NCBI RefSeq assembly: GCF_014269025.2
Contig: NZ_CP077094.1
Coordinates: forward strand, 3,100,001-3,164,000
Source: Pseudomonas promysalinigenes
GTDB taxonomy: Bacteria > Pseudomonadota > Gammaproteobacteria > Pseudomonadales > Pseudomonadaceae
DNA: 64,000 nt
Reading direction: 5' to 3'
Numbering within the stretch: position 1 is the stretch's first letter; each line of letters opens with the position of its first letter. Below, piece by piece: positions 33,640-49,983 of this stretch. The translations under genes and the position numbers were made by a program. The notes under the pieces are model-generated. The model was given only the letters and a program-made list of their open reading frames with translations, did not search any database and was not told where the DNA came from.

Positions 33640-34278
33640 TTAGAGGCTTGCGTCGACCATACCGTGGCGAACGGCCAGCAGCGTCAGCTCGACGTCGCTG
33701 GTAACCGAGAGTTTTTCGAAGATCCGATAACGATAAGTATTGACGGTCTTGGGCGAGAGGCACAACTTGTCGGAGATGATCTGCACCTTTTGGCAGCCGA
33801 CGATCATCAAGGCAATCTGGATCTCTCGTTCCGACAGCGCATCGAAGGGCGAGCCTTGAGGCTGGAACGACTTAAGCGCCAGTTGCTGGGCGATCTGGGG
33901 GCTGATGTAGCGCTGGCCGGCGAAGGCCATGCGGATGGCCTGAACCATTTCGTCAAGCCCAGCCCCTTTGGTCAGGTAACCGGCGGCACCCGCCTGCATC
34001 AGCCGGGTGGGGAACGGGTCTTCTTCACAGACAGTGACAGCCACCACCTTGATGTCAGGGTGACTGCGCAGCAACTTGCGGGTGGCTTCAAGGCCACCGA
34101 TGCCAGGCATCTTCACGTCCATCAGCACGACATCAGGTTTCAGTTCCCGGGCGAGCTTGAGCGCCGATTCGCCCGAATCCGCCTCACCTACCACCTGCAG
34201 GCCATCGATATCGGCCAACATGCGAGTAATACCGGTTCGAACCAGATCGTGATCGTCGACCACTAGGACCCTAATCAA
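33640..34278 (-). CDS. gacA: Response regulator GacA (UvrY)
   Basis: 212 residues with a receiver domain (VVDDHD, phospho-acceptor in [12 protein letters not shown], Lys in YLTKGA) and a LuxR-type helix-turn-helix ([31 protein letters not shown]). The start is a TTG at 34278, which I recall as usual for Pseudomonas gacA. With the sensor GacS it activates the small RNAs that titrate RsmA/CsrA, controlling biofilm polysaccharides, secondary metabolites and T6SS. It is upstream of uvrC as in other gammaproteobacteria. The alginate-like operon close by and the T6SS wreck are both of types often under Gac control. Confidence 0.96.
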
Positions 34279-34341: not shown

Positions 34342-34731
34342 CTAGCGTAAAACTTCCGTCAGAAATGTCCGACACCCAGGCTGCATCTGCGGCGCCGATT
34401 CCACACGACTGCCCTCACCCGCCAAACGCCCCAGCACATGCCGCAACGCTGCCTTGTCAGCCGCAGGTAAACGGCGAAATGCGCCCAATAGACCGGTTTC
34501 ATCCGCCGTCAGGCTTTCCAGCGGCGCAGGGGTGCGCTGACCACTGAGCACATACAGTGCATCCACTCCTCGGTTTGCCAAGGCCGCTAAGTAGTCCGCC
34601 CGAGGCGTGCGCTCGCCGCTCTCGTACTTGCCTTGCGCGTTGGGTTCGACGCCCCCGATGTCACCAAATACCCGCTGGGTCATGCCTAAACGTTCACGCT
34701 CTTCGCGCAGGCGTGGGCCGAATCCTTTCAT
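34342..34731 (-). CDS. XRE-family (Cro/CI) transcriptional regulator
   Basis: 129 residues from the ATG at 34731 (MKGFGPRLREERERLG) with AAGGAG upstream; a frame continuing to 34833 lacks support. The N-terminal helix-turn-helix (about 5-60) reads LREERERLGMTQRVFGDIGGVEPNAQGKYESGERTPRADYL in two parts, followed by a short C-terminal helical region without a peptidase. It is divergent from the algD-like gene across 511 bases that contain several palindromes, so control of itself and possibly of the polysaccharide operon is plausible. It could equally be an old neighbour of gacA with no link to the operon. Confidence 0.85.
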   Translation of the reverse strand: MKGFGPRLREERERLGMTQRVFGDIGGVEPNAQGKYESGERTPRADYLAALANRGVDALYVLSGQRTPAPLESLTADETGLLGAFRRLPAADKAALRHVLGRLAGEGSRVESAPQMQPGCRTFLTEVLR

Positions 34732-34940
34732 GCCAGATCTCCTTCTTCCTTGGCCTTCATGGCTGCTGATCACGCGCGTGCCAGCAGTTGTAGAGATGAC
34801 AGGCACTATGCCCATCGCCGCGCAGTGTCGCAAGCCAGCACGACCCTAGCAGAAGCCTTGATTTTGAAGGTCTTTATTCATGGATGCAGTCCATTGAGGG
34901 GTGTCGCGCCAGCGGCAGAACCGGGCCAACGCCATGTGAT

Positions 34941-34961
34941 TGGCGTCACTTTATCGCCACA
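34941..34961. promoter_or_regulatory. Operator-like motif near the XRE gene
   Basis: Five-base arms TGGCG and CGCCA flank TCACTTTAT. It contains GCGTCACTTTATCGC, related to the sites at 10472 and 25876. It lies about 210 bases upstream of the XRE start codon. Confidence 0.35.
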
Positions 34962-35029
34962 CGACAGGCATTCATTTTTTTGGCGCCCAACTAACAGCAA
35001 CTTTAAGTTATTGATTTTAAAGTGTTTTT

Positions 35030-35056
35030 TAACTTTAACGAAGAAAGTTAAAGTTA
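35030..35056. promoter_or_regulatory. Perfect inverted repeat upstream of the alginate-like operon
   Basis: TAACTTTAAC and GTTAAAGTTA, 10-base perfect arms with a seven-base spacer. A looser relative (AACTTTAAG...TTTTAAAGTG) precedes it at about 34999-35024. These are candidate binding sites for a dimeric regulator about 190-240 bases before the first start codon. Confidence 0.5.
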
Positions 35057-35107
35057 TTTTTAAATTACCGAGCAACAACGCTTGCAACAAAAATTAAAAT
35101 CCATTTA

Positions 35108-35121
35108 GTCTGTAATCAGAC
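35108..35121. promoter_or_regulatory. Second inverted repeat upstream of the alginate-like operon
   Basis: GTCTG-TAAT-CAGAC, with weaker outer symmetry (TTAGT...ACTAA). A candidate operator about 120 bases before the algD start. Confidence 0.4.
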
Positions 35122-35242
35122 CACTAAGAAACAGCCTGCAACGCCACTTCCGAGCGCGGCTTAATTCTGCGCGTCTGCCACTTATAAAATTCATAAACGA
35201 TGTATCTCGGCCGGCCTTGCCGCGCCCCAGAGAGAGGGATCT

Positions 35243-36550
35243 ATGCACATCAGTATCTTTGGACTTGGCTATGTTGGCGCGGTCTGCGCGGGGTGCCTAT
35301 CGGCCCGCGGCCATCATGTGCTGGGGGTCGATATCTCCCCGGCAAAAATCGAACTGATCAACCAGGGCAAGTCGCCCATTGTCGAACCCGGCCTGGAACA
35401 ACTGCTGCAAGAGGGCGTGAACAATGGCCGGCTGCGCGGAACAACCGATGTGCAAGGGGCCATTCTTGCCACAGATATGTCGCTGCTGTGCGTCGGCACC
35501 CCGAGCAAGAAGAACGGTGATCTGGACCTGGTGTACATGGAAGCGGTGTGTCGGGAAATCGGCACGGCGCTGCGCGACAAAGCTAGCCGCCACACCGTGG
35601 TAGTGCGCAGCACCGTACTGCCAGGCACCGTCAAGAATGTGGTGGTGCCCATTCTGGAGGAGTTTTCGGGCAAGCGAGCTGGCGTCGATTTCGGCGTAGC
35701 GGTCAACCCGGAATTCCTGCGCGAAAGTACCGCGATCAAAGATTATGACTTCCCGGCCATGACGGTAATCGGGGAACTGGACAGCCAATCGGGCGATCTG
35801 CTCGAGTCGCTGTACAAGGAGCTCGATGCACCGGTGATCCGCAAGACCATCGAAGTGGCCGAGATGATCAAGTACACCTGCAACGTTTGGCACGCCGCCA
35901 AAGTCACTTTTGCCAACGAGATCGGCAACATTGCCAAGGCTGCCGGCGTCGACGGCCGCGAGGTGATGGATGTGGTCTGCCAGGACCACAAGCTCAACCT
36001 GTCGCGCTATTACCTGCGCCCAGGGTTCGCCTTTGGTGGCTCGTGCCTGCCCAAGGATGTGCGTGCCCTGACCTACCGCGCCGCCAGCCTGGACGTGAAG
36101 GCGCCGCTGCTCGATTCGCTGATGGCCAGTAACGCTTCGCAGGTGCAGAACGCCTTCGACCTCATCGAACGCCAGGACAAACGCAAGATCGCCCTGTTGG
36201 GCCTGGCGTTCAAGGCCGGCACCGATGACCTGCGGGAAAGCCCATTGGTGGAACTGGCCGAGCGCCTGATCGGCAAGGGCTACCAATTGCACATTTTCGA
36301 CGAGAACGTCGAGTACGCCCGGGTGCATGGCGCAAACAAGGAGTACATCGAAGCGAAGATCCCCCACGTTTCGTCGCTGCTGCACGGCAACTTGCAGCAG
36401 GTGATCGAGGAAGCCGAGGTGATCGTGCTGGGTAACAACGACCCACGCTTTGCCAGCGTGCTGCAAGCCGGCCACGGCAAACAGGTGATCGATCTGGTGG
36501 GCTTCATGCCTGGCCTGAGCGACAGCCAAACCCAGGGCATCTGCTGGTAA
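35243..36550 (+). CDS. algD: GDP-mannose 6-dehydrogenase, AlgD homologue of the second alginate-like cluster
   Basis: 435 residues starting MHISIFGLGYVGAVCAGCL behind AGAGAGGGA. It oxidises GDP-mannose to GDP-mannuronate with two NAD+, the committed step of alginate-type synthesis. The NAD-binding GxGYVG, the catalytic-cysteine segment GFAFGGSCLPKDVRALTYRA and SPIVEPGL are intact. Compared with P. aeruginosa AlgD as I remember it, the match is high along the whole length, much higher than for the other proteins of this operon. First gene of eleven on one strand; the supply of GDP-mannose must come from elsewhere because no algA follows. The equivalent in the P. alkylphenolica epm cluster would be epmD. 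Confidence 0.93.
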   Translation: MHISIFGLGYVGAVCAGCLSARGHHVLGVDISPAKIELINQGKSPIVEPGLEQLLQEGVNNGRLRGTTDVQGAILATDMSLLCVGTPSKKNGDLDLVYMEAVCREIGTALRDKASRHTVVVRSTVLPGTVKNVVVPILEEFSGKRAGVDFGVAVNPEFLRESTAIKDYDFPAMTVIGELDSQSGDLLESLYKELDAPVIRKTIEVAEMIKYTCNVWHAAKVTFANEIGNIAKAAGVDGREVMDVVCQDHKLNLSRYYLRPGFAFGGSCLPKDVRALTYRAASLDVKAPLLDSLMASNASQVQNAFDLIERQDKRKIALLGLAFKAGTDDLRESPLVELAERLIGKGYQLHIFDENVEYARVHGANKEYIEAKIPHVSSLLHGNLQQVIEEAEVIVLGNNDPRFASVLQAGHGKQVIDLVGFMPGLSDSQTQGICW

Positions 36551-36641
36551 CCACCCCAGCACCCACCCTGCTCCACCCGCCACAGGGTCACCCCTGGGCG
36601 GTGTGGCGCGCGGCCACCGGCAAAACAGGAGTCAAGGCGAC

Positions 36642-38171
36642 ATGGATCGACAGCACCCACCCTTCGTAGCACCCGGCTACCTGCGCGCAGGCGCCAGCTT
36701 CTTCGGCTGGGCGTGCCTGGCCGGGCTGATTGCGCTGGCGTCGGAGATGGTCGCCCCGCAGTATCTGGACCCAAACCACCACCTGTTCATCTTCATCATC
36801 GGCACGCTGGGGATGTGGCGCTATGGAAACGCCGTCGTTCACTACGTGCGCGGCATGTATTTCCTGCATTGGCAATTTCCAAGGCTGCGCCGCCGGGTGG
36901 AGCGCCTGGGCGATGCGGCGCTGCCCTCGCACATGTTCATGGTGGTAACCAGCTTTCGCATTCCCACCATGACCACTTTCAAGGTCTACCAGTCGGTGTT
37001 CCAGGAGGTGCAACGGCTGAAAGTGCCCTGCACGGTGATCGCTTCGATCGTCGAGAAAGGCGACGAAAACTTCATCAAGGACATCATGCGCAATGAGGTC
37101 AAGAACCGCGACGACATCAAGTTGGTGATCGTCCGCGCCCGCGGCACCGGCAAGCGTGACGGCCTGGCCCATGCCTTCAGGGCGTTGTCGCGGCAGATGC
37201 CGCTCAGTGATGCCGTGGTAGGCGTGGTCGACGGCGACACCATGATGCTGCCCGGCTGTGTCGAGCGGGCAGTCAAGCTGTTCGCCGTGCTGCCGGACGT
37301 TGGCGGCTTGACCACCAACGAGTTCTGCGAAGTCGAGGGCAGCCGATGGATGCGCCAATGGCACTCGATGCGGTTCGTGCAACGCCACATCAACATGTGC
37401 TCGATGGCGCTATCACACCGGGTGCTGACGTTGACCGGGCGGCTGTCGTTCTTCCGCGCTGAAGTGATGACTGACCCCGAGTTCATCCGCGATGTCGAGG
37501 CCGACTTTCTAGAGCACTGGCGGCTCGGTCGCTTCCAGTTCCTCACCGGTGACGATAAGTCGAGCTGGCTGAGCCTGATGCGCGCCGGCTGGAACACTTT
37601 CTACGTGCCCGACAGCCACACCCTGACCGTCGAGCATCCACCCAGCGACAGCTTCTTCATCGCTACGCGGCAATTGATGTTCCGTTGGTACGGCAACTCG
37701 CTGCGCCAGAACTTTCGCGCCACGGCCCTGCTCGGCCGCGCGCGCCTTGGGCTGTTCACCCTGTACGTGCTGCTCGACCAGCGGGTGTCGATGTGGACCT
37801 GCCTGATGGGGCTGACCGCCTCGGTGGTGGCCGGTGTGGCGTTCGGCATCCAGTACCTGTTGGTGTACCTGTTCTGGGTGCTGATCTCGCGCAGCCTGGT
37901 GACCGTGCTGTTCGTGTTCGCCGGGCACCCGGTGAGCCCGATGTACCCCTTCGTCCTTTATTACAACCAGATCGTCGGTTCGCTGATGAAGGTCTACGCG
38001 ATGTTCCACATGGACCAGCAAAGCTGGACGCGGCAAAAGACCACTCTGGCCACTGGCAGCGTCGACTTCGATGCCAGCCTCAACCGCTGGTCCTCGAAGG
38101 CGATGCTGTGCTCGTCGGTCGCCATCTTCTTCGGGGTCATCACCGTTCTTCTAGAACTCTCGCAACGTTAA
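36642..38171 (+). CDS. alg8: Mannuronan polymerase, Alg8-like glycosyltransferase
   Basis: 509 residues from the ATG at 36642; an upstream start at 36603 is not supported by an RBS. It is an inner-membrane family 2 glycosyltransferase: two N-terminal membrane segments, a cytoplasmic catalytic domain with VVDGDT (DxD-type), LTGDDKSSW and RWYGN, then several C-terminal membrane helices. The segment FCEVEGSRWMRQWHSMRFVQRHINMCSMAL is closely alike in Alg8 when split at its centre. By eye only about half of the residues match P. aeruginosa Alg8, which marks it as a divergent paralogue. It should polymerise mannuronate together with the Alg44-like partner encoded next. Confidence 0.9.
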   Translation: MDRQHPPFVAPGYLRAGASFFGWACLAGLIALASEMVAPQYLDPNHHLFIFIIGTLGMWRYGNAVVHYVRGMYFLHWQFPRLRRRVERLGDAALPSHMFMVVTSFRIPTMTTFKVYQSVFQEVQRLKVPCTVIASIVEKGDENFIKDIMRNEVKNRDDIKLVIVRARGTGKRDGLAHAFRALSRQMPLSDAVVGVVDGDTMMLPGCVERAVKLFAVLPDVGGLTTNEFCEVEGSRWMRQWHSMRFVQRHINMCSMALSHRVLTLTGRLSFFRAEVMTDPEFIRDVEADFLEHWRLGRFQFLTGDDKSSWLSLMRAGWNTFYVPDSHTLTVEHPPSDSFFIATRQLMFRWYGNSLRQNFRATALLGRARLGLFTLYVLLDQRVSMWTCLMGLTASVVAGVAFGIQYLLVYLFWVLISRSLVTVLFVFAGHPVSPMYPFVLYYNQIVGSLMKVYAMFHMDQQSWTRQKTTLATGSVDFDASLNRWSSKAMLCSSVAIFFGVITVLLELSQR

Positions 38172-38187
38172 GGAAAGGCGCCTGCAT

Positions 38188-39351
38188 ATGAGTACCACGA
38201 ACATCCCCGCGGCCCCGGGCAAAACAGCGGCCAACATCGTCCACGAAGCGGTCGACGAGCGCCAGTATGTGCGCACGCGCATGAACGCCCGCGTGCGCCT
38301 GTGCAGTGCCGGCCAGGCGCCGTTCGAGGTAGCCCTGCAGGATATTTCCCTGGGCGGCCTGGGCCTGAGCCACGACGCCCCCCTGAAGATCGGCGCGTTG
38401 TATGACGCCTCCATACGCCTGCGCCTGAACCAGATCGACCTGAACATCGACAGCAAGATCCGTATCGTCTCGCAGCGTGGCAGCGAGGTGGGCGCGCAGT
38501 TCGTCGACCTTGATGCGCAGAAGCGCGACATTCTGCGCTACCTGATCAGCGCCTACATGTCTGGAGAAATCGCTGATATCAATGGCCTGTTCACGGTCAT
38601 GCAGCGCGAGAACTACATCAAGGAACGCAAGCACAAGTACGCCAGCGCCCGCACCCCAGGAGCTCGCCTGAAGGCGTTGACGGGCACGCTGTTGTACACC
38701 GCCGCTGGCATCGCCGCACTGGCCTTCGTTGGTTACAAAGGCTACCTGCTGTTCTTCCGCATCCCAGCGCTGCAGGCGCAAGTGGCGACCAACGCCCAGG
38801 TCATCAGCATGCCCGACAATGGCTATGTGAAATACCTGCTGCCTGCCGGTGCCACCGAGGTGCACGCCGGGCAGCCGCTGGCCAGCATTTCTACACAGCT
38901 GGCCACCAGCTTCACCAGCCCTGCCGACATGAAGGCTGTGGCCGACCTGTCGCCGGGTGACCTGCAAACCCTGCTCGGCCGTGCCACCATCGAGACGGTG
39001 ATCAACAGCCCCTGCGATTGCCAGGTCTACTACCCAAGCCCGCGGGTGGATGGTTACGGCTACAAGGAGGCGCCACTGATGCACTTGCTGCCCAAGGCGC
39101 AAGGCATGTTTGTGCGCGCCAATCTGCCGTTCGACAAGCTCGCCGATATCGAGCGGGTTAAGTCGGTGGACATGCAGGTGTTCGGCCTTGACCAGCACTA
39201 CAGCGGCAAGGTGGTCGACGCGCGTGTCGATGAGGCCAACCGCAATCTGGCACTGACAATCGAGCCTGACAGCCCGCTGCCGGCCGATGCCTACCAGAAA
39301 GCGGTGGCGGTCGACCTGTTCCTGGGCCTGCCGTTTGGCGCTGCGCGCTAA
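38188..39351 (+). CDS. alg44: Alg44-like PilZ/c-di-GMP-binding polymerase subunit
   Basis: 387 residues. The N-terminal cytoplasmic PilZ domain retains both c-di-GMP motifs: Arg31-x3-Arg35 (RMNAR) and Asp52-x-Ser54-x2-Gly57 (DISLGG). One membrane helix follows at about 166-190, then a periplasmic HlyD-like part (NAQVISMPDNGYVKYLLPAG) as in Alg44. It should activate the Alg8-like polymerase on c-di-GMP binding and contact the periplasmic export complex. RBS AAGGAAAGG upstream; it begins 16 bases after alg8. Confidence 0.9.
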   Translation: MSTTNIPAAPGKTAANIVHEAVDERQYVRTRMNARVRLCSAGQAPFEVALQDISLGGLGLSHDAPLKIGALYDASIRLRLNQIDLNIDSKIRIVSQRGSEVGAQFVDLDAQKRDILRYLISAYMSGEIADINGLFTVMQRENYIKERKHKYASARTPGARLKALTGTLLYTAAGIAALAFVGYKGYLLFFRIPALQAQVATNAQVISMPDNGYVKYLLPAGATEVHAGQPLASISTQLATSFTSPADMKAVADLSPGDLQTLLGRATIETVINSPCDCQVYYPSPRVDGYGYKEAPLMHLLPKAQGMFVRANLPFDKLADIERVKSVDMQVFGLDQHYSGKVVDARVDEANRNLALTIEPDSPLPADAYQKAVAVDLFLGLPFGAAR

Positions 39352-39372
39352 ACCGCCAAGGACGATGACGCC

Positions 39373-40824
39373 ATGACCGTGAACATGCCCCCCCGCCTGC
39401 TGCTGGCCAGCCTGGCCCTGGCCTGCGCCAGCACGGCCAGCGCCGGGCAGAGCCTGGAGCAGATCCGCTACACGCTATACAAGGACCCATCGGCAGAGGT
39501 CACTGGCGATCTGCGTCAACTGGCTGAGCGTGGCGATCTGGCCAGCACCTTGCTGCTTGGCGATGTACTGGCCGCACGGCCAGACTCCAGTCCCGCAGAA
39601 GTGGTGGCGTTGTATCAGAAGGCTTTCGCCGATGGCCGTGGCATGGTCCCGGCGCTGGCTTCGCTGGCTCGCCTGATCGACCGCACTCCACACCTGCGCG
39701 AAGCGCAGCGCACATGGATGACCCAGGCACTGACGCGCTACCCGGCCAACCTCGACCCGCGTAACACCAGCACCACGCTGGAAGTGTTTCTGACCTATCC
39801 CGAGCTCGTCGAACCTGCTCAGGCCGCACAACTGTTGGCGCTGTACGAACAGGCCTGCCTGCTCAACTGCCGCCCGGAGCTCTACCATGCCGTGTTGGCC
39901 GAACGCCAAGGCCGGCGCAGCGAAGCCGAACGCTGGTACCGCCAGGCGGTCAAGGTGGATGCCCGCGCCATCGACCGCTACTACGCCTTTCTCGGCGAGC
40001 AGCAGGACCGCTTGTTCCCAGCATTCGCCGACCAACTGGAGCCGGAACGCGAGCAGTTGCCGGTGGAGAACATCCACCGCATCGCCGCCTTGCTCGACAG
40101 CATTGCCAGCGTGCAGCGTGCCGAACAGGATGCCGACCGCTATGAGAGCCAGAACAGCACAGCCGGTGCCGAAAAGCTGCCGCCGACACCCGAGCAACTG
40201 GCTCGCGAAAAGGCTCAGCAAGACGCCTTGGACCTGGCTACCGCCCGCGTTCAACGCTGGCGAGACGTAGCGGTGGCCCGCGGATACGTACCAGCGATGG
40301 TATCGAAGGCCAACTACATGATCTCCAACCCGACCGAGCACAACGCCGAGGAAACCCAGGCGCTGATCGATCAGGTGCGCCCGCGCGATCCGACGCGGGC
40401 CAAGGCCTTGCAAGCTCAGTTCTACATGGTCAACAACTGGCTGACCATGGACCCGGACAAGGCCCGCGCATTGATCGAAGAACTGCGTGCCAGTGGTTAC
40501 CCCGGTGCCGGCTTGCTGCTGGGTGAGTACTACAGCAAGGGGGTCGAGGACCAACCTGACCAGGAAAAGGCCCTGGCGCTGTTCCAGGCCGAAGCCAACA
40601 AAGGCAACACCGCTGCCTGGTACCGCATGGCCACCCTGCACGCCTACGGCCGCGCGCTGTGTCACGACCCAGTCAAAGCCTACACCTATGCCCGCGTAGC
40701 GCTGGACCTGGGCGAGCGCAGCGCCAAAAGCCTGGTCAGGCGCCTGGAAAAAACCCTGCCCAAGGATGACATCGAGCGCGCCATGGCCGCTCGCAACGGG
40801 CTATTCAAGGAGGCCACCCTGTGA
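39373..40824 (+). CDS. algK: AlgK-like TPR/Sel1-repeat periplasmic protein
   Basis: 483 residues with an N-terminal signal (LLLASLALACASTASAG). The Cys in LALAC is a possible lipidation site, but the preceding residues are not an ideal lipobox. The body is made of helical Sel1/TPR-type repeats (GDLASTLLLGDVLAARP, GYPGAGLLLGEYYSKGVEDQ, GNTAAWYRMATLHAYGRA). In alginate systems AlgK guides the AlgE porin and the polymer through the periplasm. Its last codons overlap the GTG start of the algE homologue by four bases. Sequence similarity to canonical AlgK is low, so identification leans on repeats and position. Confidence 0.82.
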   Translation: MTVNMPPRLLLASLALACASTASAGQSLEQIRYTLYKDPSAEVTGDLRQLAERGDLASTLLLGDVLAARPDSSPAEVVALYQKAFADGRGMVPALASLARLIDRTPHLREAQRTWMTQALTRYPANLDPRNTSTTLEVFLTYPELVEPAQAAQLLALYEQACLLNCRPELYHAVLAERQGRRSEAERWYRQAVKVDARAIDRYYAFLGEQQDRLFPAFADQLEPEREQLPVENIHRIAALLDSIASVQRAEQDADRYESQNSTAGAEKLPPTPEQLAREKAQQDALDLATARVQRWRDVAVARGYVPAMVSKANYMISNPTEHNAEETQALIDQVRPRDPTRAKALQAQFYMVNNWLTMDPDKARALIEELRASGYPGAGLLLGEYYSKGVEDQPDQEKALALFQAEANKGNTAAWYRMATLHAYGRALCHDPVKAYTYARVALDLGERSAKSLVRRLEKTLPKDDIERAMAARNGLFKEATL

Positions 40825-42275
40825 AAGCGCACCACCCCCTGTTTGGCGCCTTGCTCGTCCTGGCGAGCGTGCCGGCGTGCTTTGCCGCCGAAGAAATCAC
40901 CGGCCCTGAAGCGGACAGCAACGAGCCGGTACGCGTCGTAGCCGCCGATGGCAGCGAACCTGTGATCACCTCCGAAGTGTTCAACAAGCTCACCGTGCAA
41001 ACCGGCTATGGCCCGCAAGACTCCCAAGTCGGCAGCGACCGGGAAATGTTCTATAGCCTGCGCTACGAACCGTCGTTCGCTTGGTACTCACCGGAAAAGC
41101 GCTGGGCGAAATGGATGGTCTACGGCCGCCTGTGGCTGAACTACGACTCCAGCCAGTCGAGCAACCTGACCCTTGAGGCGACCAACAGCAGCAAACGCGA
41201 GCAGCCCGAAGGCTGGTATGCCGAAATGCGCGAGCTGTACGTCAAGCGCAACCTGATCGGTGACGACCCGCGCTTTTCAGCCTCATTTGGCCGCCAGCGT
41301 TTCTTCGATGACTATGGCATCTGGTGGGATGACAGCCTGGAGTCGCTGCGTTTGAACTTCCAGGACACCTTCTCCGAAGCGTTCTTCGCCGTTGGCCAGA
41401 AGTTCTACAACTACAACACCGACGTCAACCAGTTGCCCGACAGTGAGGAGCGCACGACCTACCTGATGGGCCAATACGCCTATCGCTGGAGCCAGAACAA
41501 CCAGGTTGGCGTGCGCTTGATGCACGAGAACGACCACAGCGGGCACGACGCCGACGACCGCTACGACTTCAAGGGCATGCGCTACGGGTTGTTCTTCAAG
41601 GGCGACAACTTGCCTTACCCAGTGCTCAGTGACTACCACCTGGAACTGGCGGCGCTGGACGGCAAAATGGACAACACCAATGGCAACGGCGTCACCACCA
41701 CCGGCCACAGCAGCAAAGGCTGGGCAGTGCTCGGCGAAGTCGGCAAGCGCTTCGACAGCCTGGCCTGGACGCCACGCCTGGCCCTGCGCGGCGGCCTGAC
41801 CGACAAACCCAGCGATGAAAACGATGGCTTTCGCCTGAACGCGATCCAGTCCGACCGCATCACCCGTACTGGCTCCTACAGCACCCGCCTGACCAGTTCG
41901 TTCGTCGCCCTGGACCTGCGCAACCTGAGCTACTACGGCTTCGCCGTGGAAACCCGCCCCACCCCACGCAGCGCGCTGGACCTGCGGGTTACCCAACTGC
42001 AACTGCGCGACCCCGACGGCACCCTACCGATCCGCATGAACGGCGACCAGCGCACGCAGCGTAACCGCGCCATCAGCCAAGGTACCCAGGGCAACGGGCG
42101 CAACGTCGGGCAAATGATCGACCTCAACTACTACTGGAAGATGTTTCCGGTGGCTATCGATGGCAAACACCTGGACGTCAACGCGCTGGTCAGCGCCAGT
42201 TACCTCAATGCCGGCAGTGCATTGGAAACCGGCGATGACTACCAGTTGAGCGTCGGTGTGGTGATCAGTTACTAA
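40821..42275 (+). CDS. algE: AlgE-like outer-membrane polysaccharide export porin
   Basis: 484 residues, the family length (about 490), starting at a GTG with AAGGAGG upstream. It has a signal peptide (LLVLASVPACFA) and a beta-barrel rich in alternating aromatic/charged strands; GWYAEMRELYVKRNLIGDDPRFSASFGRQRF is recognisably AlgE-like in its first and last parts, as is FDDYGIWWDD. It ends in an aromatic-rich strand with final Tyr (VGVVISY). It should carry the polymer across the outer membrane through an arginine-lined pore. Confidence 0.88.
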   Translation: MKAHHPLFGALLVLASVPACFAAEEITGPEADSNEPVRVVAADGSEPVITSEVFNKLTVQTGYGPQDSQVGSDREMFYSLRYEPSFAWYSPEKRWAKWMVYGRLWLNYDSSQSSNLTLEATNSSKREQPEGWYAEMRELYVKRNLIGDDPRFSASFGRQRFFDDYGIWWDDSLESLRLNFQDTFSEAFFAVGQKFYNYNTDVNQLPDSEERTTYLMGQYAYRWSQNNQVGVRLMHENDHSGHDADDRYDFKGMRYGLFFKGDNLPYPVLSDYHLELAALDGKMDNTNGNGVTTTGHSSKGWAVLGEVGKRFDSLAWTPRLALRGGLTDKPSDENDGFRLNAIQSDRITRTGSYSTRLTSSFVALDLRNLSYYGFAVETRPTPRSALDLRVTQLQLRDPDGTLPIRMNGDQRTQRNRAISQGTQGNGRNVGQMIDLNYYWKMFPVAIDGKHLDVNALVSASYLNAGSALETGDDYQLSVGVVISY

Positions 42276-42289
42276 GGAAGGGCCGTGCC

Positions 42290-43717
42290 ATGATCTTCGC
42301 CTCCAATGTGTTCCTGTTCCTCTACCTGCCGCTGTTCCTGGCCGTGTACTTCCTGGCCAAAGCGCAGTGGCGGTCAACGGTGATCGTCGCCGCCAGCTAC
42401 ATCTTCTATGCCTGGTGGCGGCCAGACTTCCTGCTGTTGTTCGTCGGTATCACCTACTGGAACTACTGGTTCGGCCTGCGTATCAAGGCACGCCTGGATG
42501 CCGGCGACAAACCCATGGCTCTGCGCCTTCTGTGGATCGGTGTGGCCGGCAACCTGTCGACCCTGGGCTATTTCAAATACGCCAATTTCGGCGCCGAAGT
42601 ACTGGCCATGCTGCTCGCACCGCTGGGCATCAATACCTGGACGCTGGAGAACATCTTCCTGCCACTGGGCATTTCCTTTTACGTGTTCCATGCCCTTAGC
42701 TACATCGTCGACATCTACCGCAAGGACGCTACACCCACACGCAACTTCATCGACTTCGCCGCCTTCGTCGCGCTGTTCCCGCACCTGGTGGCCGGGCCAA
42801 TTCTGCGCTACAGCCAGCTGGCGCCACAGCTGCGCGAGCGCACCCACTCGCTGGAGCTGTTTTCGCTGGGGGTTTGCCGTTTCATGCTCGGCTTCATCAT
42901 GAAGGTGTTGATCGCCGACCGCCTGGCACCGATCAACGTGCTGTTCGTCAGCGAAGGTACGCTGCAGTTCAGCGACGCCTGGTTCGGCCTGGTGATCTCG
43001 ACGCTGCAGCTGTATTTCGACTTCGCCGGCTACAGCCACATGGCCTTGGGCCTGGCACTGATGATGGGCTTTCGCTTCCCGGAGAACTTCAACCAGCCCT
43101 ACGTGGCGCAGAGCATCACCGAGTTCTGGGCACGCTGGCACATGACCCTGGCGCATTTTTTGCGCGACTACGTGTACATGCCGCTGGTGCGTAAACGGGT
43201 GGCCGGTGCAATGCCGGCGCTGATCTGGACCATGCTGCTGTCGGGCCTGTGGCACGGCGCGAGCTTCGCCTTCATCTGCTGGGGCCTGTTCTTTGGCGTT
43301 GGCATGGTGCTGGAGCGCAAGTTCAACCTGGCGACCAAGGTTGGCGCGCCTTACAAGCTCGGCCGACACCTGCGCACCGGCCTGCTGATCCTGTTGAGCA
43401 TGCCGCTGTTCTTCACCATGGACCTGCGCCACAGCATCGATATCTACAAGGCGTTGTTCGGCTTCAACGGCTTCGGCTCGCTGGAGCTGTATGTGCTGGG
43501 TGCCTCGAAGATGGCCATGGCCTTCGCTCTGGTGGCGCTGGCCTGGCTGCTGCTGGCCGGCATCAATAATTTGCGCTTCTACGCCGGCAACAAGGAAGGC
43601 TACTTCATGCGCCATGTCGGCGCGTTGCACAGCGTGCTGCTGTGGGGGGGCTTCCTGCTGGCCCTGAGCAGCCTGGCAGCCAACTCGTTCTCACCCTTTC
43701 TGTATTTTCAGTTCTAG
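42290..43717 (+). CDS. algI: AlgI-like membrane-bound O-acyltransferase (MBOAT)
   Basis: 475 residues with about 11-12 membrane helices. MBOAT hallmarks are present: MIFASNVFLFLYLPLFL at the start, FLPLGISFYVFHALSY, LYFDFAGYSHMALGL, SITEFWARWHMTLAHFLRDY and the catalytic-His motif SGLWHGASFAFI. It moves acetyl groups from a cytoplasmic donor to the periplasm for addition to mannuronate. In the canonical alginate operon algI follows algL; here it comes straight after algE. RBS AAGGAAGG upstream. Many MBOAT proteins serve other polymers, but the neighbours fix this one. Confidence 0.9.
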   Translation: MIFASNVFLFLYLPLFLAVYFLAKAQWRSTVIVAASYIFYAWWRPDFLLLFVGITYWNYWFGLRIKARLDAGDKPMALRLLWIGVAGNLSTLGYFKYANFGAEVLAMLLAPLGINTWTLENIFLPLGISFYVFHALSYIVDIYRKDATPTRNFIDFAAFVALFPHLVAGPILRYSQLAPQLRERTHSLELFSLGVCRFMLGFIMKVLIADRLAPINVLFVSEGTLQFSDAWFGLVISTLQLYFDFAGYSHMALGLALMMGFRFPENFNQPYVAQSITEFWARWHMTLAHFLRDYVYMPLVRKRVAGAMPALIWTMLLSGLWHGASFAFICWGLFFGVGMVLERKFNLATKVGAPYKLGRHLRTGLLILLSMPLFFTMDLRHSIDIYKALFGFNGFGSLELYVLGASKMAMAFALVALAWLLLAGINNLRFYAGNKEGYFMRHVGALHSVLLWGGFLLALSSLAANSFSPFLYFQF

Positions 43718-43726
43718 GAGAACGCC

Positions 43727-44821
43727 ATGTATCCGGTGATGAATTCGGCCAGCAAGGCCAACGGCATTGTGTTCATTGTGGTGCTGGCGGCCATGTTCCT
43801 CTATTCGCTGCCGCCGGTGTTCAGCTTTGCGCGCACCTCGACCGACACCTGGAACCTGTTCGTCGACGGCAAACTGCTGCGCAAGTTCGAGCAAGCCTAC
43901 GACAAGCGCTTCTTCCTGCGCGACCCGTCGGTTGAGTTGTGGGCCGACGCCCAGTTCCATCTGTTTGGAGAAGGCACCAAGGGCGTGGTACTTGGCAAAG
44001 ATGGCTGGCTCTACACCAATCAGGAATACCGCGTACCCAACGATCTAGACGCCAATCTGGCGGCACAACTTGAGCAGATCGCCAAGGTGCGCCTGCAACT
44101 GGCAGAGCATGGCAAGCACCTGGTTATTCTGCCATTGCCGATGAAGCTCGACGTCTACGCAGCCCACGCCCAGCATGCTTTCGACCCACGGGTAATCAGC
44201 CTCTACGACCGCTTTGTCAGCGAGTTGCAAGGCCGCCAGATGGATGTGGTGCCGTTGCGTGCGGCCTTCCTCGCCAACCTTGAAGGCCCACAGCTGTTTC
44301 TCAAGTCCGACACTCACTGGAGCCCTGAAGGCGCACGGCTGTCGGCCTATGAATTGGCACGTCAGCGCCCGCAATTGCTCGGCGACCAAGTCTACGTTTC
44401 GCACAAGGCCGGCGACAAAAGCGTCAAGGGTGACTTGATGAATTACATCCAGTTCGACCACGCCCGCCTGGCCCCCCAGTTCGGCCCCAACTCCATCGCC
44501 CTCTACGAAACCCTCAAGGCCGAGCAAGGTGCCGACGACCTGTTCGCCGAACAAGACCAGAGCCTGATGCTGGTCGGCACCAGCTACAGCAAGATCGACG
44601 ACTGGAACTTCGTCGGCTTTCTCAAGGAAGCGCTCAACCGCGACCTGTTGAGCATTGCCGTGGAAGCGCGGGGCCCGTTCGAGGCGATGAACCAGTTCCT
44701 CGCCAGCGATCAACTGGCAAGTACCCAGATCGACACCGTGGTGTGGGAATTCCCGCTACGCACCCTGCTCGCCCACCGCCCAGGCTCACTTAGCCGTAGC
44801 GCTGCGCCCCAGCATTTCTGA
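43727..44821 (+). CDS. algJ: AlgJ-like polysaccharide O-acetyltransferase
   Basis: 364 residues with one N-terminal membrane anchor (GIVFIVVLAAMFLYSLPPVF) and a periplasmic SGNH-like domain. The catalytic Asp-x-His is in KSDTHWSPEGA and the Ser in LVGTSYSK, the same arrangement as AlgJ. GVVLGKDGWLYTNQEY is also typical. It transfers acetyl with AlgI and AlgF. It begins nine bases after algI with AGGAG upstream. Confidence 0.9.
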   Translation: MYPVMNSASKANGIVFIVVLAAMFLYSLPPVFSFARTSTDTWNLFVDGKLLRKFEQAYDKRFFLRDPSVELWADAQFHLFGEGTKGVVLGKDGWLYTNQEYRVPNDLDANLAAQLEQIAKVRLQLAEHGKHLVILPLPMKLDVYAAHAQHAFDPRVISLYDRFVSELQGRQMDVVPLRAAFLANLEGPQLFLKSDTHWSPEGARLSAYELARQRPQLLGDQVYVSHKAGDKSVKGDLMNYIQFDHARLAPQFGPNSIALYETLKAEQGADDLFAEQDQSLMLVGTSYSKIDDWNFVGFLKEALNRDLLSIAVEARGPFEAMNQFLASDQLASTQIDTVVWEFPLRTLLAHRPGSLSRSAAPQHF

Positions 44822-44840
44822 CGAATCAAGGAGAGTCCGA

Positions 44841-45470
44841 ATGAAGCTTACCCACCTGTTCACCGCCATCGCCCTGGCCACCGCCGGCCATACCGTTTTG
44901 GCTGCCGAGGGCAACGCTGACCTATACGACGCCGTGGCCCCTGCCGACTCGGCCTTCGTGCGGGTGCTGAACCTGTCCGACAGCAACATCGACGTCAGCC
45001 TCAGTGGCAAGGTCAACCCGCAGCGGGTCGCCGCCGGGCAGCTCAGCGGCTATCGGTTCACACCCGCAGGCCCGCACAAGATCACCATCGCCGGTAAATC
45101 CATCGAACCCCAGCTCAAGGCCAATGCCGCGAGCACCGTGGTGTACGACGGCAAGCAGCTCAAGCTGATCAGCGACAAGTACGTCAATGAGCCGAAAAAG
45201 GCGCAGATCGCCTTCTATAACCTGACCCAGAACCCGGCAGCGCTGAAGACCTCCGATGGCAAGCACGACGTGGTGCAGACCCTGGGCAATGGTGAGACCG
45301 GCACGCGCATGGTCAATGAGATCAAGATCGACTTCGCTGCCTACCAGCAGGACACCAAAGTTGCCAGTTTCGACGAGCAGTTCCTGAAGAAGGGGCGCTC
45401 GTACAGCTACGTACTGCTGCCGGGCAACCGCAGCATGACCCTGGCCAACAGCATCGACCCGACCGAGTGA
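44841..45470 (+). CDS. algF: AlgF-like periplasmic acetylation protein
   Basis: 209 residues, close to the AlgF length (about 215), with a signal peptide (MKLTHLFTAIALATAGHTVLA) and the family stretches AFVRVLNLSDSNIDVSLSG and KAQIAFYNLTQNPAALKTSD, beta-rich. AlgF binds AlgJ/AlgX and is needed for acetylation, although it has no known catalytic site. RBS AAGGAGAG upstream. In canonical operons algA follows; here algX follows. Confidence 0.9.
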   Translation: MKLTHLFTAIALATAGHTVLAAEGNADLYDAVAPADSAFVRVLNLSDSNIDVSLSGKVNPQRVAAGQLSGYRFTPAGPHKITIAGKSIEPQLKANAASTVVYDGKQLKLISDKYVNEPKKAQIAFYNLTQNPAALKTSDGKHDVVQTLGNGETGTRMVNEIKIDFAAYQQDTKVASFDEQFLKKGRSYSYVLLPGNRSMTLANSIDPTE

Positions 45471-45497
45471 CGATTGCTCAGCAAGGATGAATGGCAC

Positions 45498-46901
45498 ATG
45501 AAGACCCTTGTACCTGTTGCCCTGAGCGTTGCCATCGCGCTGCTCAGCCTGCCCAGCCAGGCCGCGCAACCCGCCCAGGCGGGCAAGCCTGGTTGCGAGA
45601 ACCTGCAGTGCATGGTGTGCCCGGCTTTGAGCGACCCGCAACGCTATGCCGAAGGGCGCATGAAGTTGATGCGCGAGATCGTGCCTGGCAAGGATCGCTG
45701 GCTGTTCCGTTCGGCCGTAGACCTGACCAATGAATTCGGTATTCCAGCACCGATGCGCCCGGAGTTCGCGCGCCTGATGCATGCGTTCGAACGCCAGGGC
45801 ATTCATGTGGCCATGGCGATCCAGCCGACCCGCGGGCTGATGCACCGCGACAAGCTGTTCGCCAACCAGCTGCACGGTTTCGACTACGCCCGCGCCAGCG
45901 GTAATCTCGCCACCTACCTTGGCCAACTGCGCCAGAGCGGCGCGGTGGTAGCGCCGATGATGCAACTGGTACAGCAGCCGCCCAAAGGCGAGTACTTCTT
46001 CCGCCGTGACCACCACTGGACACCAGCTGGGGCTGAGGCCACGGCGAAGCTGATGGCCGAAGAAATCCGTCGCCAACCGTTCTATGCCGGGCTGACCAAA
46101 AAGCAATACCGTACCGAGCCGGGCGTGATGGTGCCAAAGGACGGCACGCTGAACCTGGCGATGAGTTCACTGTGCGGCAACAACTATGGTTTTCAGTACG
46201 TGCGTGGCTACCAGACGGTTCCGGTGGCCAGTGGCGGCGATGCGCTGTTCGATGACGCGCCGGACCCTGAGGTGATCCTGGTGGGTGACAGTAACGCCGC
46301 CGCCCGCGAGGACGAAAGCAAGCAGTTCAACTTCGACGGCTACCTCAAGCAATACCTGAACGTCGACGTACTGAACTATGCCCTGCCTGGGGTTGGCGAA
46401 GACGGCTCGCTGCTCGAATACCTGTTGTCCAGCGACTACAAGCCCAAGGCACCGCCCAAGCTGATCGTCTGGGAGCTGCCGGCCAACTACCGGTTGGACT
46501 CGCCGTTGATGTACCGGCAACTGGTGCCGGCCATTCAAGGCGGCTGCGCGGCAAGCCAGCAGGTTCTGGAAAGCAAACTTAAGCGTCCGGCCTTGAAGGT
46601 GGGTGAGCGCATCGAGCTGCTGAGCAATGCGGGCAGTGGCCGCCAGTCGCTTTCCAAAGGCTTTCTGGACATTCGTCTGAGCGACAAGAACGTCAAGGAT
46701 TTCTACATCATCGTCTATTACGACAACGGCGCGCGGGACAAGGTGTGGTTCCGCCGTGAGGCGGCGGTGACTGGCGGCCAATATTATCTGGAACTGAGCA
46801 AAGCACCGGAATTCGCCGGCGCCAACCTGTTATCGGTATTCATGGAGCCGACCAAGGCCGGTACCGCAGCGACCGCCGTGGAGACCCGTCTATGCCTATG
46901 A
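45498..46901 (+). CDS. algX: AlgX-like polysaccharide acetyltransferase
   Basis: 467 residues from the ATG at 45498 (MKTLVPVALSVAIALLSLPSQA), with AAGGA upstream; a TTG at 45474 is less likely. The SGNH-like domain shows the Asp-x-His pair in RRDHHWTPAGAEA and a Ser block VGDSNAAARED, and is followed by a carbohydrate-binding-like C-terminal domain (about 345-460). KTLVP start, CENLQCMVCPAL with paired Cys and PPKLIVWELPANY are AlgX-like. AlgX does the final acetylation of the polymer and bridges the export complex. Its end overlaps the algL homologue by 10 bases. Confidence 0.88.
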   Translation: MKTLVPVALSVAIALLSLPSQAAQPAQAGKPGCENLQCMVCPALSDPQRYAEGRMKLMREIVPGKDRWLFRSAVDLTNEFGIPAPMRPEFARLMHAFERQGIHVAMAIQPTRGLMHRDKLFANQLHGFDYARASGNLATYLGQLRQSGAVVAPMMQLVQQPPKGEYFFRRDHHWTPAGAEATAKLMAEEIRRQPFYAGLTKKQYRTEPGVMVPKDGTLNLAMSSLCGNNYGFQYVRGYQTVPVASGGDALFDDAPDPEVILVGDSNAAAREDESKQFNFDGYLKQYLNVDVLNYALPGVGEDGSLLEYLLSSDYKPKAPPKLIVWELPANYRLDSPLMYRQLVPAIQGGCAASQQVLESKLKRPALKVGERIELLSNAGSGRQSLSKGFLDIRLSDKNVKDFYIIVYYDNGARDKVWFRREAAVTGGQYYLELSKAPEFAGANLLSVFMEPTKAGTAATAVETRLCL

Positions 46902-48019
46902 GCAAACTATTACCGGGCATCGGGTTACTGGCCATGAGCCTCGTGTTCCCCCACGCCCATGCGGCGCAGTCCATCTGGCCGGCACACCCCACGCCGCAAT
47001 CGGCCATGATTGCCGATTACCGTACCCTGGTCTGCACCAAGGAACCGCCAGCACCTTTTACCGGCAGCCTGCGCCTGCAGAGCAAGTACGACCAGCGCGA
47101 TGCAAGCAAGTCGACACTGCGCAGCAGCCCCGACGCCGACAGTGAACGTATCGGCAAGCAGGTCAAGCAGTTCGTCGGCGGCCTGATCTACGCCAGCAAG
47201 CGCTTCCAGGGCGCCAAGAAGCCGCAGGACGCCAACATGGCGCTGGCCTGTCAGGACCAGTGGCTGCAGCGCTGGGCCGACGCTGGCGCCCTGCTCAACC
47301 CTGATGCCACCGGCACCGGCATGGCGGCGCGCAAATGGGCGCTTGCGGCCATGGCTGGCACCGTGCTGCTTACCCAGGCAGCCAGCAACGGCAAGCTGCA
47401 ACTGAGCGATGCACAGCGTACCTGGTTCACCGACCTTGGCGAGTTGGTGATCCGTGAATACGACCCCCGCCGCAGCGCCAGCGGCGTGTACTTCAACAAC
47501 CACGACTATTGGGCAGCCTGGGCGGTGGCAGCCACCGGCATGCTGGTTGGCCGCGACGACTTCATCCGCTGGGCCGATGGTAATTTGCGCCGCGGCCTGG
47601 CTCAGGCCGTGCGCTCCAACCAGGGCAACTACGCCTACCTGCCGCTGGAGGTGGCGCGCAGCAAGCTGGCAGCCAACTACAGCCAGTACGCCCTGGTGCC
47701 GCTGGTGCTGCTGAGCGAGTCGGCGCGCGCCAACGGCCTGCCGTGGAGCAGCCAAGACCAGCAGACACTCGACCTGCTGGCCAATTTCGCCGCGCGCACG
47801 GTGCTCGACCCCGCCGACCTACCGGAACTCAAAGGCCAGTCGCAAAGCGATGTGGCGCCATACAAGATGGCGTGGCTGATCCCGTTTCTGCAGCGCAATC
47901 CTGGCCATGCGCTGGCGCGTCAGCTGTACGACAGCCAAGACGGCGAGGTGGACAACTACAGCCAGCTCGGCGGCCCGATCAAAGCCTTCTATTCCCCTCT
48001 GCCCGGATCAAGGAGCTGA
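46892..48019 (+). CDS. algL: AlgL-like periplasmic mannuronate lyase
   Basis: 375 residues with a signal peptide (LLAMSLVFPHAHAAQ) and the alpha/alpha-barrel of PL5 lyases. The catalytic Asn-His motif is kept in YFNNHDYWAAWAV, Lys/Tyr in LQSKYDQRD, and Arg and Tyr in VARSKLAANYSQYAL; the residue after that Tyr, His in P. aeruginosa as I recall it, is Ser here. AlgL degrades polymer that strays into the periplasm and is needed for viability when polymer is made. The start at 46892 overlaps algX; 46898 is an alternative. Confidence 0.87.
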   Translation: MPMSKLLPGIGLLAMSLVFPHAHAAQSIWPAHPTPQSAMIADYRTLVCTKEPPAPFTGSLRLQSKYDQRDASKSTLRSSPDADSERIGKQVKQFVGGLIYASKRFQGAKKPQDANMALACQDQWLQRWADAGALLNPDATGTGMAARKWALAAMAGTVLLTQAASNGKLQLSDAQRTWFTDLGELVIREYDPRRSASGVYFNNHDYWAAWAVAATGMLVGRDDFIRWADGNLRRGLAQAVRSNQGNYAYLPLEVARSKLAANYSQYALVPLVLLSESARANGLPWSSQDQQTLDLLANFAARTVLDPADLPELKGQSQSDVAPYKMAWLIPFLQRNPGHALARQLYDSQDGEVDNYSQLGGPIKAFYSPLPGSRS

Positions 48020-48022
48020 CCC

Positions 48023-49477
48023 ATGGCTGCCCTCGCCCGCTTTTCCATCACCTGCCTGGCTGCGCTGTGGCTGGCAGGCGCTGCCCAGGCCGCCAGCCAG
48101 GCGCTACCGGCCAACCAGATCGTCGATACCCTGCCGGCTGAGCAACGCCAGCTCAAGGCCGATCAATTGCGCCAGCAGGTGCGCCAGGCAGTCGCCTTTG
48201 AGCAAACCGAACGGCAGCGCCCGGCCGGGCGTGCCAGTGTCAGCCTGCAACCGATGTTTTCTTCCCAGGCCGGCAGCTGGCCCTTCGAGCCATTGGTCAA
48301 CAACGGCCTGTTCCGCGCCATCGCCGGTTATCAGGCACACCACCCACAAGTGGTGATGCTGCGTGGTGGCAGTATCACGCTGGCGCAGTTGCATGACGCA
48401 CTCAACAACCCGCGAGTGCTCAAGCGCTACAAAGACGGCTACCTGTTGAGCTACCCGCTGATGATCGGCAGCGACGCCGGCCTGGTCCTTGAAGGCACCA
48501 GTCTGTACCTGGCGAGCTTCTCCGGTACGGCACTGATCAACCAGGGCTGGCTTAGCCTGAACCAGTCCAGCCTGCAGAGCATGGCCGGCGACAAACCGGC
48601 TAGCACCGACCGCGCGTGGCGGCCCTTCGTTGTGGCCTGGGCTGGCAGCCATACCCAGGTGCTGGGTTCGACCCTCAAGCGCCTGGGCTACAACGCCAAC
48701 CTCTCGCGGGGCTTGACCACCGCCTTAAGTTCTCAGCAGGCAGCCAGTACTCGCCTGGCCACGGTGATCATCCGCGATAGCCAGTTCAGCGAAATGTCCA
48801 CGGCGGTGGAGTTGCAGCATAGCCAGGCGACCATCAGCACCAGCCAGTTCGAGCGCTCGCAACAATACGCCGTGGATGTGCAGAACAGCCAGGTCAAGTT
48901 GCAAGGCAACCAACTACGTGGCATCGACAACAACAGCGGCGTACGACTGCGTGGCAAGACGCGGGCCTTGGTCGAAGACAACCTTATCCTTGGCGCGACC
49001 AAGGCTGGGATCGAAATCACCGAACAACAGGGCGCAGTGCTGCTGGCTGGCAACCGCATCGGCGACAGCCGCGGCAACGGCATTCAGTTGCGCAGCCTGA
49101 CACCAACTGCGGCGGCGCCACTGGTAATCGACGACAACCTGCTGGCCAGCAGCCAAGGCAGCGCAGTGGACGCCAGCGAGGTCGGCGCCGTGGCCCTGCT
49201 GGACAACCGTATCGGCAATACCGCCGAATACGCCGTCAGCCTGCGCAATACGACGCCGCTGGCCGGGCCGTTGCTGCTCAGTGGCAACCGCCTTGGCCGG
49301 GTCGGCAAGGCGCTGGTCAGGGTCGAGGGGGTTCGGGACGTGGTGTTGGGCGGCAACAGCTTCGACGGCAAACCGTTGTTGCAGAACCTGTTGATTGGTG
49401 ACTTGTTGCCGCTGCAAGGGCAGCTGCTAGAGGCGACTGTTCGCCAGGGCGCAACGGTGCGGGTAAGGCAGCCATGA
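48023..49477 (+). CDS. algG: AlgG-like beta-helix protein without the epimerase catalytic motif
   Basis: 484 residues (canonical AlgG about 540) with a signal peptide (CLAALWLAGAAQA) and a right-handed beta-helix from about 240 to 450 with repeated short strands (FSEMSTAVELQHSQATIS, GKTRALVEDNLILGATKAGI). Canonical AlgG carries Asp-Pro-His-Asp as the C5-epimerase centre; the aligned segment here is YAVDVQN, so the catalytic His and second Asp are gone. It therefore probably does not convert mannuronate to guluronate but may keep AlgG's structural role in the periplasmic complex. Last gene of the operon; the end position is also unlike canonical order. Confidence 0.82.
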   Translation: MAALARFSITCLAALWLAGAAQAASQALPANQIVDTLPAEQRQLKADQLRQQVRQAVAFEQTERQRPAGRASVSLQPMFSSQAGSWPFEPLVNNGLFRAIAGYQAHHPQVVMLRGGSITLAQLHDALNNPRVLKRYKDGYLLSYPLMIGSDAGLVLEGTSLYLASFSGTALINQGWLSLNQSSLQSMAGDKPASTDRAWRPFVVAWAGSHTQVLGSTLKRLGYNANLSRGLTTALSSQQAASTRLATVIIRDSQFSEMSTAVELQHSQATISTSQFERSQQYAVDVQNSQVKLQGNQLRGIDNNSGVRLRGKTRALVEDNLILGATKAGIEITEQQGAVLLAGNRIGDSRGNGIQLRSLTPTAAAPLVIDDNLLASSQGSAVDASEVGAVALLDNRIGNTAEYAVSLRNTTPLAGPLLLSGNRLGRVGKALVRVEGVRDVVLGGNSFDGKPLLQNLLIGDLLPLQGQLLEATVRQGATVRVRQP

Positions 49478-49513
49478 GGTATCGGTTGCAGTGATTTGCC
49501 GGGCCGGCAGCGG

Positions 49514-49945
49514 TCAACCAATGGTCCGTTGCATCCTCACAAAACACTCATCGTTACCCATGTCGATGAAACCCTGGCGCAGGTACAACTGCCGCGCCGG
49601 GTTGCTCTTGAACACCATCAATCGCAGCAGCGGCAAACGGCGCTGCGCGGCCCATCCCGCCAGTGTCTGCAACACCTGACTGCCTACCCCTCGCCCCCGG
49701 TGTTGCTCACTCAGGTGCAGTTCACGAATGAACAGTGCCTGCCGATCCTGGCTAAGGCTACAAAAACCCAGCACCTGATCATCCTGCATCACCAGCCATT
49801 GCTCGCGCCAAGCCCACGCTTGATCGAAGGCCTCCTCGACCCACAATAGGCCGAACTCGTGGTAATAGGGCAACATCGCCCGCCGAGTAAGGTCACGGGC
49901 GAAGTCGCGATGGGCATCGCTTGCGCCAATCAATTCAACGGGCAT
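49514..49945 (-). CDS. GNAT family N-acetyltransferase
   Basis: 143 residues from the ATG at 49945 (MPVELIGASDAHRDFARDL). The acetyl-CoA-binding motif is HRGRGVGSQVLQTL, preceded by the strand FIRELHLSEQ and followed by LPLLRLMVFKSNPARQLYLRQGF. The substrate is unknown. It converges on the polysaccharide operon with only 36 bases between them, and no terminator is obvious. A longer frame upstream lies inside the GST gene and is not used. Confidence 0.85.
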   Translation of the reverse strand: MPVELIGASDAHRDFARDLTRRAMLPYYHEFGLLWVEEAFDQAWAWREQWLVMQDDQVLGFCSLSQDRQALFIRELHLSEQHRGRGVGSQVLQTLAGWAAQRRLPLLRLMVFKSNPARQLYLRQGFIDMGNDECFVRMQRTIG

Positions 49946-49983
49946 GCTGCACACCTGCGGCGTTCGAGGTTCAGCCTCGCTGG

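Follow-up and report, generated by a model that had tools for sequence, protein, structure and literature searches.

A second alginate-type operon of the epm family in Pseudomonas promysalinigenes encodes an AlgG-like protein without the DPHD motif

The steps of alginate production have been assigned to Alg8 and Alg44 (synthesis), AlgI, AlgJ, AlgF and AlgX (acetylation), AlgG (epimerisation), AlgK and AlgE (export) and AlgL (clearance) (PMC4444821, PMC4432689, PMC9734138), and the canonical Pseudomonas operon reads algD-8-44-K-E-G-X-L-I-J-F-A. Two described systems come closer to the locus reported here. The first is the epm cluster of P. alkylphenolica (Lee et al. 2014, doi 10.1007/s00253-014-5529-6, cited in PMC8745256 and PMC5890197). 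The second is operon II of Ectopseudomonas guguanensis G3, printed as algDA-8-44-Un-Un-IJFXLG, which differs from our locus in carrying algA and whose algG is labelled C5 epimerase in the figure legend (PMC13296017); E. guguanensis JCM 18416 (L037) had an epm-type locus in our survey. We analysed a 64,000-nucleotide stretch of P. promysalinigenes (NZ_CP077094.1, positions 3,100,001 to 3,164,000; hereafter the window), in which eleven adjoining plus-strand open reading frames (ORFs) occupy positions 35243-49477. An earlier note on this DNA had read them as same-strand homologues in the order D-8-44-K-E-I-J-F-X-L-G, without algA, and domain and BLASTP evidence bore out both points. Pfam and NCBIfam models were clear for D, 8, 44, E, I, J, F, X and L, weak for K, and recognised G as a beta-helix protein only. 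All eleven frames were open, although the epmX ORF starts with TTG and has a possible ATG start eight codons further in. Because the genes lie only -10 to +52 bases apart, they likely form one operon.

The genome (5.05 Mb, one contig) also holds, on the other strand, a canonical algD-algA operon with algA as its last gene. The cluster contains homologues of all the canonical genes but algA and shares the motifs of 8, 44, I, J, X and L with that operon, but differs from it in gene order, in the absence of algA, in an EpmG without the DPHD motif and in forming separate clades. As the earlier note had judged, AlgD is highly conserved between the two systems whereas Alg8, AlgK, AlgI and AlgL are diverged (Table 1). 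The G+C content (GC) of the cluster, 0.623 against 0.625 for the canonical operon, gives no sign of recent foreign origin, and a megablast search of a plasmid collection gave no match for the cluster. To place the cluster we built trees of Alg8, AlgI and AlgE, each with 38 rows (31 epm and 7 canonical), by a quick method under LG+G4. In all three the cluster proteins shared a clade with the P. alkylphenolica epm proteins, and a branch with a Shimodaira-Hasegawa approximate likelihood-ratio support (SH-aLRT) of 100 set the epm rows apart, ours among them. The AlgD tree was less clean: labels changed twice (mean 12.6 after shuffling), 4 of 42 rows were unlabelled, and the set that contains the window AlgD, at 98%, consists of nine rows, every one of them epm. 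Gene conversion of algD was considered as the cause of its 79% identity and rejected since epm and canonical AlgD are mostly apart, with no single clean split; constraint is the likelier explanation.

The P. alkylphenolica strains that we compared were xwS2 and PSB00016 (L027 and L030), not the published strain. In both, the genes from D to L keep our order and are followed by EpmG (G001:C30:452712 and G002:C8:65910); both have the same pgsA-uvrC-gacA-XRE flank, with 87% identity in Alg8 and 72-73% in EpmG. At the sequence level, divergence was the only difference seen. Order, flank, identity and clades thus agree with the earlier proposal of a separate polymer system matching epm, and the cluster is an orthologue of the published one. 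That system is reportedly needed for aerial structures and multicellular biofilm, a role that the present cluster may share. Lee et al. (2014) reportedly also gave preliminary indications of a substituted polymannuronate and of a requirement for epmG.

To survey the family, we scanned genomes once with the Alg8 homologue as query and examined the best 80 of 559 confirmed loci, of which 73 were epm-type by best match and 7 canonical. The D-to-L order recurred across the 73 epm-type loci and across genera, so the arrangement D-8-44-K-E-I-J-F-X-L-G is not due to chance. The exceptions were loci ending at a contig or flank end, loci with algA inserted or with D missing upstream, and oddities such as L051 and L038, the latter with its alg8 match in two pieces. 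In 42 of the 73 loci D was directly followed by 8, in 26 algA stood between them and in 5 (L050, L054, L057, L061 and L067) there was no upstream D. Absence of algA is not, then, a general epm trait. Among the matches listed, an epm-type Alg8 (at least 74% identity to the query, the next rows listed being at 51-56%) was found in 27 of 249 genomes drawn evenly across the genus. Several loci depart from the common pattern. P. mangrovi has X-L-G followed by D-A-8-44-K-E-I on one strand (L051) and D-8-44-K-E-I (L045), perhaps two epm-type clusters head to tail. In the genomes of L034 and L040 (G008 and G010), AlgG-like and AlgD matches numbered three apiece, which hints that these genomes have a third operon of alginate type. 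In the Alcanivorax loci L111 and L112 the AlgG-like gene has an algA-like gene nearby on its own strand, and both seem to face the genes of the D-8-44 series, in contrast to the arrangement in Pseudomonas.

Since the sequence flanks stopped before or inside G in nearly all 73 loci, we examined G separately in 28 epm genomes, with L022 left out. The earlier note had called the last gene an AlgG homologue and left unremarked that the catalytic motif is missing. The DPHD motif was absent from EpmG in every relative examined, over a clade spread across Pseudomonas and several other gammaproteobacterial genera. By alignment, on which all our statements about this active site rest, the catalytic histidine of AlgG (H319) corresponds to Q287 in the window EpmG, a position that is variable across the family. 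The predicted EpmG model is nevertheless the right-handed parallel beta-helix of AlgG, although it shares only 16% identity with the AlgG mannuronan C5-epimerase (PDB 4nk6) and has other conserved charged residues. Because the fold is kept and the histidine is not, EpmG most likely does not carry out AlgG-type C5 epimerisation. We found no account of the missing motif in the open-access literature on epm, although an earlier mention may exist; as far as that literature shows, its loss throughout the sampled family looks unreported.

We consider it probable that the epm cluster encodes a second alginate-type, synthase-dependent machine whose EpmG is non-epimerising and whose product is an acetylated, unepimerised polymannuronate. 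All alginate steps but epimerisation are predicted to run. GDP-mannose, supplied by the canonical operon's AlgA or by a different enzyme of AlgA type, would be oxidised by EpmD; Epm8 and the PilZ protein Epm44 would polymerise mannuronate at high cyclic diguanylate (c-di-GMP); EpmI, EpmJ, EpmF and EpmX would add O-acetyl groups; EpmK and EpmE would export the polymer, and EpmL would clear stray chains from the periplasm. EpmG may bind the chain and guide or protect it. According to a review, loss of AlgG makes mutants release unsaturated oligomers in place of alginate (PMC4444821); a retained, non-epimerising EpmG fits such a role.

Several observations weigh against this reading. EpmG retains the equivalents of Tyr314 (58/60) and Asp317 (60/60) and has near-invariant residues of its own, R308, K327 and E331, each in 59 of 60 rows. 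This conservation would fit an altered enzyme no less than a binding protein. The charge-neutralising residue of AlgG is named in the literature as an arginine, which we take to be Arg345, and its position in EpmG falls on G311 by profile alignment and on R310 by MAFFT, an ambiguity of one residue; position 310 is Arg in 40 of 60 rows. The search of the 28 epm genomes with EpmG returned a further AlgG-like match in 19, and at least 25 of the 27 epm genomes of the genus sample have a further Alg8. A canonical AlgG acting in trans is therefore conceivable, and might operate in most epm genomes. The tree support comes from a quick search with long branches and long-branch warnings. Finally, co-immunoprecipitation gave no AlgK-AlgG contact in one study (PMC9734138), which makes it less than certain that AlgG-like proteins act as scaffolds.

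The strongest competitor, which we regard as unlikely but worth keeping in view, is that EpmG modifies polyuronates through a rebuilt site (D285, R308, K327 and E331) with Lys/Arg chemistry like that of polysaccharide lyase family 6 (PL6), whose catalytic Lys/Arg pair works with a neutralising Ca2+, and that it epimerises, cleaves or otherwise alters the polymer. The near-invariance of R308 and K327 would suit such a site, but their order and spacing differ from those of PL6 Lys-249 and Arg-270, PL6 structures rank far below AlgG when compared with the EpmG model, and two Alcanivorax rows have neither D285 nor K327.

That the cluster is a redundant alginate operon, with canonical AlgG and AlgA working in trans to give ordinary mannuronate/guluronate alginate, we hold to be improbable. 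The 79% identity between the two AlgD proteins, the shared synthase motifs and the additional Alg8 and AlgG-like matches speak for it; the strong divergence of the AlgE, AlgK, Alg44 and AlgG homologues and the separate clades of Alg8, AlgI and AlgE, and mostly of AlgD, speak against it, as do the nine epm genomes in which EpmG was the sole AlgG-like protein found (L042, L048, L050, L058, L062, L065, L069, L072 and L075), some of which are drafts or metagenome bins. Searching these nine with canonical AlgG gave a single match each, at the place of EpmG (AlgE-type epimerases were not searched for), while the same search found both proteins in the control, L027. An AlgA-type match at E 1e-60 was present at least once in each of ten epm genomes, namely these nine less L058 plus L054 and L061. 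In L062 the sole match holds one stop by the count of the tool, in L050 the sole match lies on another contig, and in L061 algA and algD lie beyond EpmG on the opposite strand.

Among the remaining enzymes, the motifs of the Alg8-type synthase were kept in 74 of 74 rows, and the PilZ motifs, the Asp-His and Ser motifs of AlgX and AlgJ and the MBOAT motif were kept with small variation. In EpmL, SKY was found in 98 of 99 rows, NNHDYW in 97 and NNHDHW in 2 (some loci counted twice), and the variants listed retain an Arg and a Tyr. We take the synthase, PilZ, lyase, AlgX/AlgJ and MBOAT motifs to be catalytic. The ratio of nonsynonymous to synonymous substitution rates (dN/dS), a rough estimate at dS 0.5-1.0, was 0.133 for EpmG in the comparison with P. 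taiwanensis (other ten genes, 0.044-0.157) and 0.214 in that with P. alkylphenolica (other ten genes, 0.125-0.263), and so lay inside their range both times. A decaying paralogue, suggested by the lost AlgG motif and by a report terming the equivalent E. guguanensis operon less likely functional (PMC13296017), is very improbable given eleven open frames, dN/dS of 0.04-0.26 in both comparisons, kept motifs in the other enzymes and an order conserved across genera. That EpmK has lost the AlgK lipobox was considered and dropped: a lipobox pattern matched 5 of 74 EpmK rows, but it also missed 6 of the 8 canonical AlgK rows, and a Cys was lacking from the first 40 residues in only 16 of the 74 EpmK rows.

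The earlier note had placed the cluster directly downstream of gacA and an XRE gene; both lie on the minus strand, as do uvrC and pgsA, so the cluster is divergent from them. PgsA, UvrC and GacA stood upstream of epmD in 30 of 33 P. putida-type loci, the exceptions being L024 and L049, which end at a contig end, and P. costantinii L066, which has other surroundings. The flank was found in none of the 40 other epm-type loci, some of them with shortened flanking sequence. Of note, L026, a P. putida-type locus from Pantoea sp. Cy-639 with a 99% identical GacA, is probably from a misnamed Pseudomonas. Among 24 gacA regions from 29 genomes searched, the XRE gene adjoined gacA with epmD in three (our own included) and without it in six, which argues that this gene is independent of epm. 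One of these six, L168, is an empty site: its genome belongs to the same genus and had no Alg8 among the matches listed. Positions 34978-35007 lie within the best conserved stretch of the AT-rich upstream region at 34813-35272 (27 aligned P. putida-type regions, 12 listed), and AGAGGGA just 5' of the epmD start, largely conserved, was considered as a putative Rsm-type site. No strict-consensus sigma-70 promoter was found in 34800-50200.

Table 1 Features of the epm locus in the window, with BLASTP identity to the canonical counterpart in the same genome (aa, amino acids)
Feature	Position	Strand	Identity to own canonical protein	Assignment and evidence
gacA	33640..34278	-		Flanking marker gene; Response_reg + GerE; synteny
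XRE-family regulator gene	34342..34833	-		Divergent neighbour outside the operon; HTH_31/HTH_3
Divergent intergenic region	34834..35242	+		Between XRE gene and epmD; AT-rich, GC 0.455
epmD	35243..36550	+	79%	GDP-mannose 6-dehydrogenase, AlgD homologue; UDPG_MGDP_dh domains; clusters with epm AlgDs
epm8	36603..38171	+	54%	GT2 polymannuronate synthase, Alg8 homologue; GT2 Pfam; DGDT, GDDK and RWYGN in 74/74 epm rows
epm44	38188..39351	+	28%	PilZ c-di-GMP receptor/co-polymerase, Alg44 homologue; PilZ domain; own RQYVRTR and DISLGG
epmK	39373..40824	+	27% (over 134 aa)	AlgK-like; no Pfam match; NCBIfam AlgK E 3.5e-14, 52 bits against a cut-off of 700
epmE	40821..42275	+	32% (over 127 aa)	AlgE-like outer-membrane porin; Alginate_exp PF13372
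epmI	42290..43717	+	46%	MBOAT O-acetyl donor, AlgI homologue; PF03062; RWH and GLWHG
epmJ	43727..44821	+	35%	SGNH acetyltransferase-like, AlgJ homologue; PF16822 (ALGX); DTHWSP and GTSYS
epmF	44841..45470	+	30%	AlgF homologue; PF11182
epmX	45474..46901	+	31%	O-acetyltransferase with C-terminal carbohydrate-binding module, AlgX homologue; PF16822 + PF16824; PDB AlgX 4knc 5e-75
epmL	46892..48019	+	30%	Polysaccharide lyase family 5 (PL5)-type lyase, AlgL homologue; PF05426; NF001469 above cut-off; PDB AlgL 4ozv 1e-34
epmG	48023..49477	+	21% (over 290 aa)	AlgG-fold beta-helix protein without DPHD catalytic motif; Pfam Beta_helix/NosD, sub-cut-off Mesothelin match

A 2015 review states that AlgG is present in every bacterium that produces alginate and that no organism making mannuronan had been identified in nature (PMC4444821). 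The alginate-type operons described here form a family present in 27 of 249 genomes sampled across the genus; their AlgG-like protein lacks the catalytic motif, and in some of the genomes searched it was the only AlgG to be found. On balance we lean towards epm bacteria being natural producers of guluronate-free polymannuronate, in which the EpmG clade would have dropped the epimerase histidine, gained D285-R308-K327-E331 (outside Alcanivorax) and come either to handle the polymer without chemistry or to modify it by a chemistry undescribed for AlgG-type proteins. If the polymer is polymannuronate, its chain would be stiffer than that of alginate, a point made in the same review (PMC4444821), and would probably gel less with calcium; the material could be obtained from wild strains, and the C5-epimerase annotation of epmG-type genes would be wrong.
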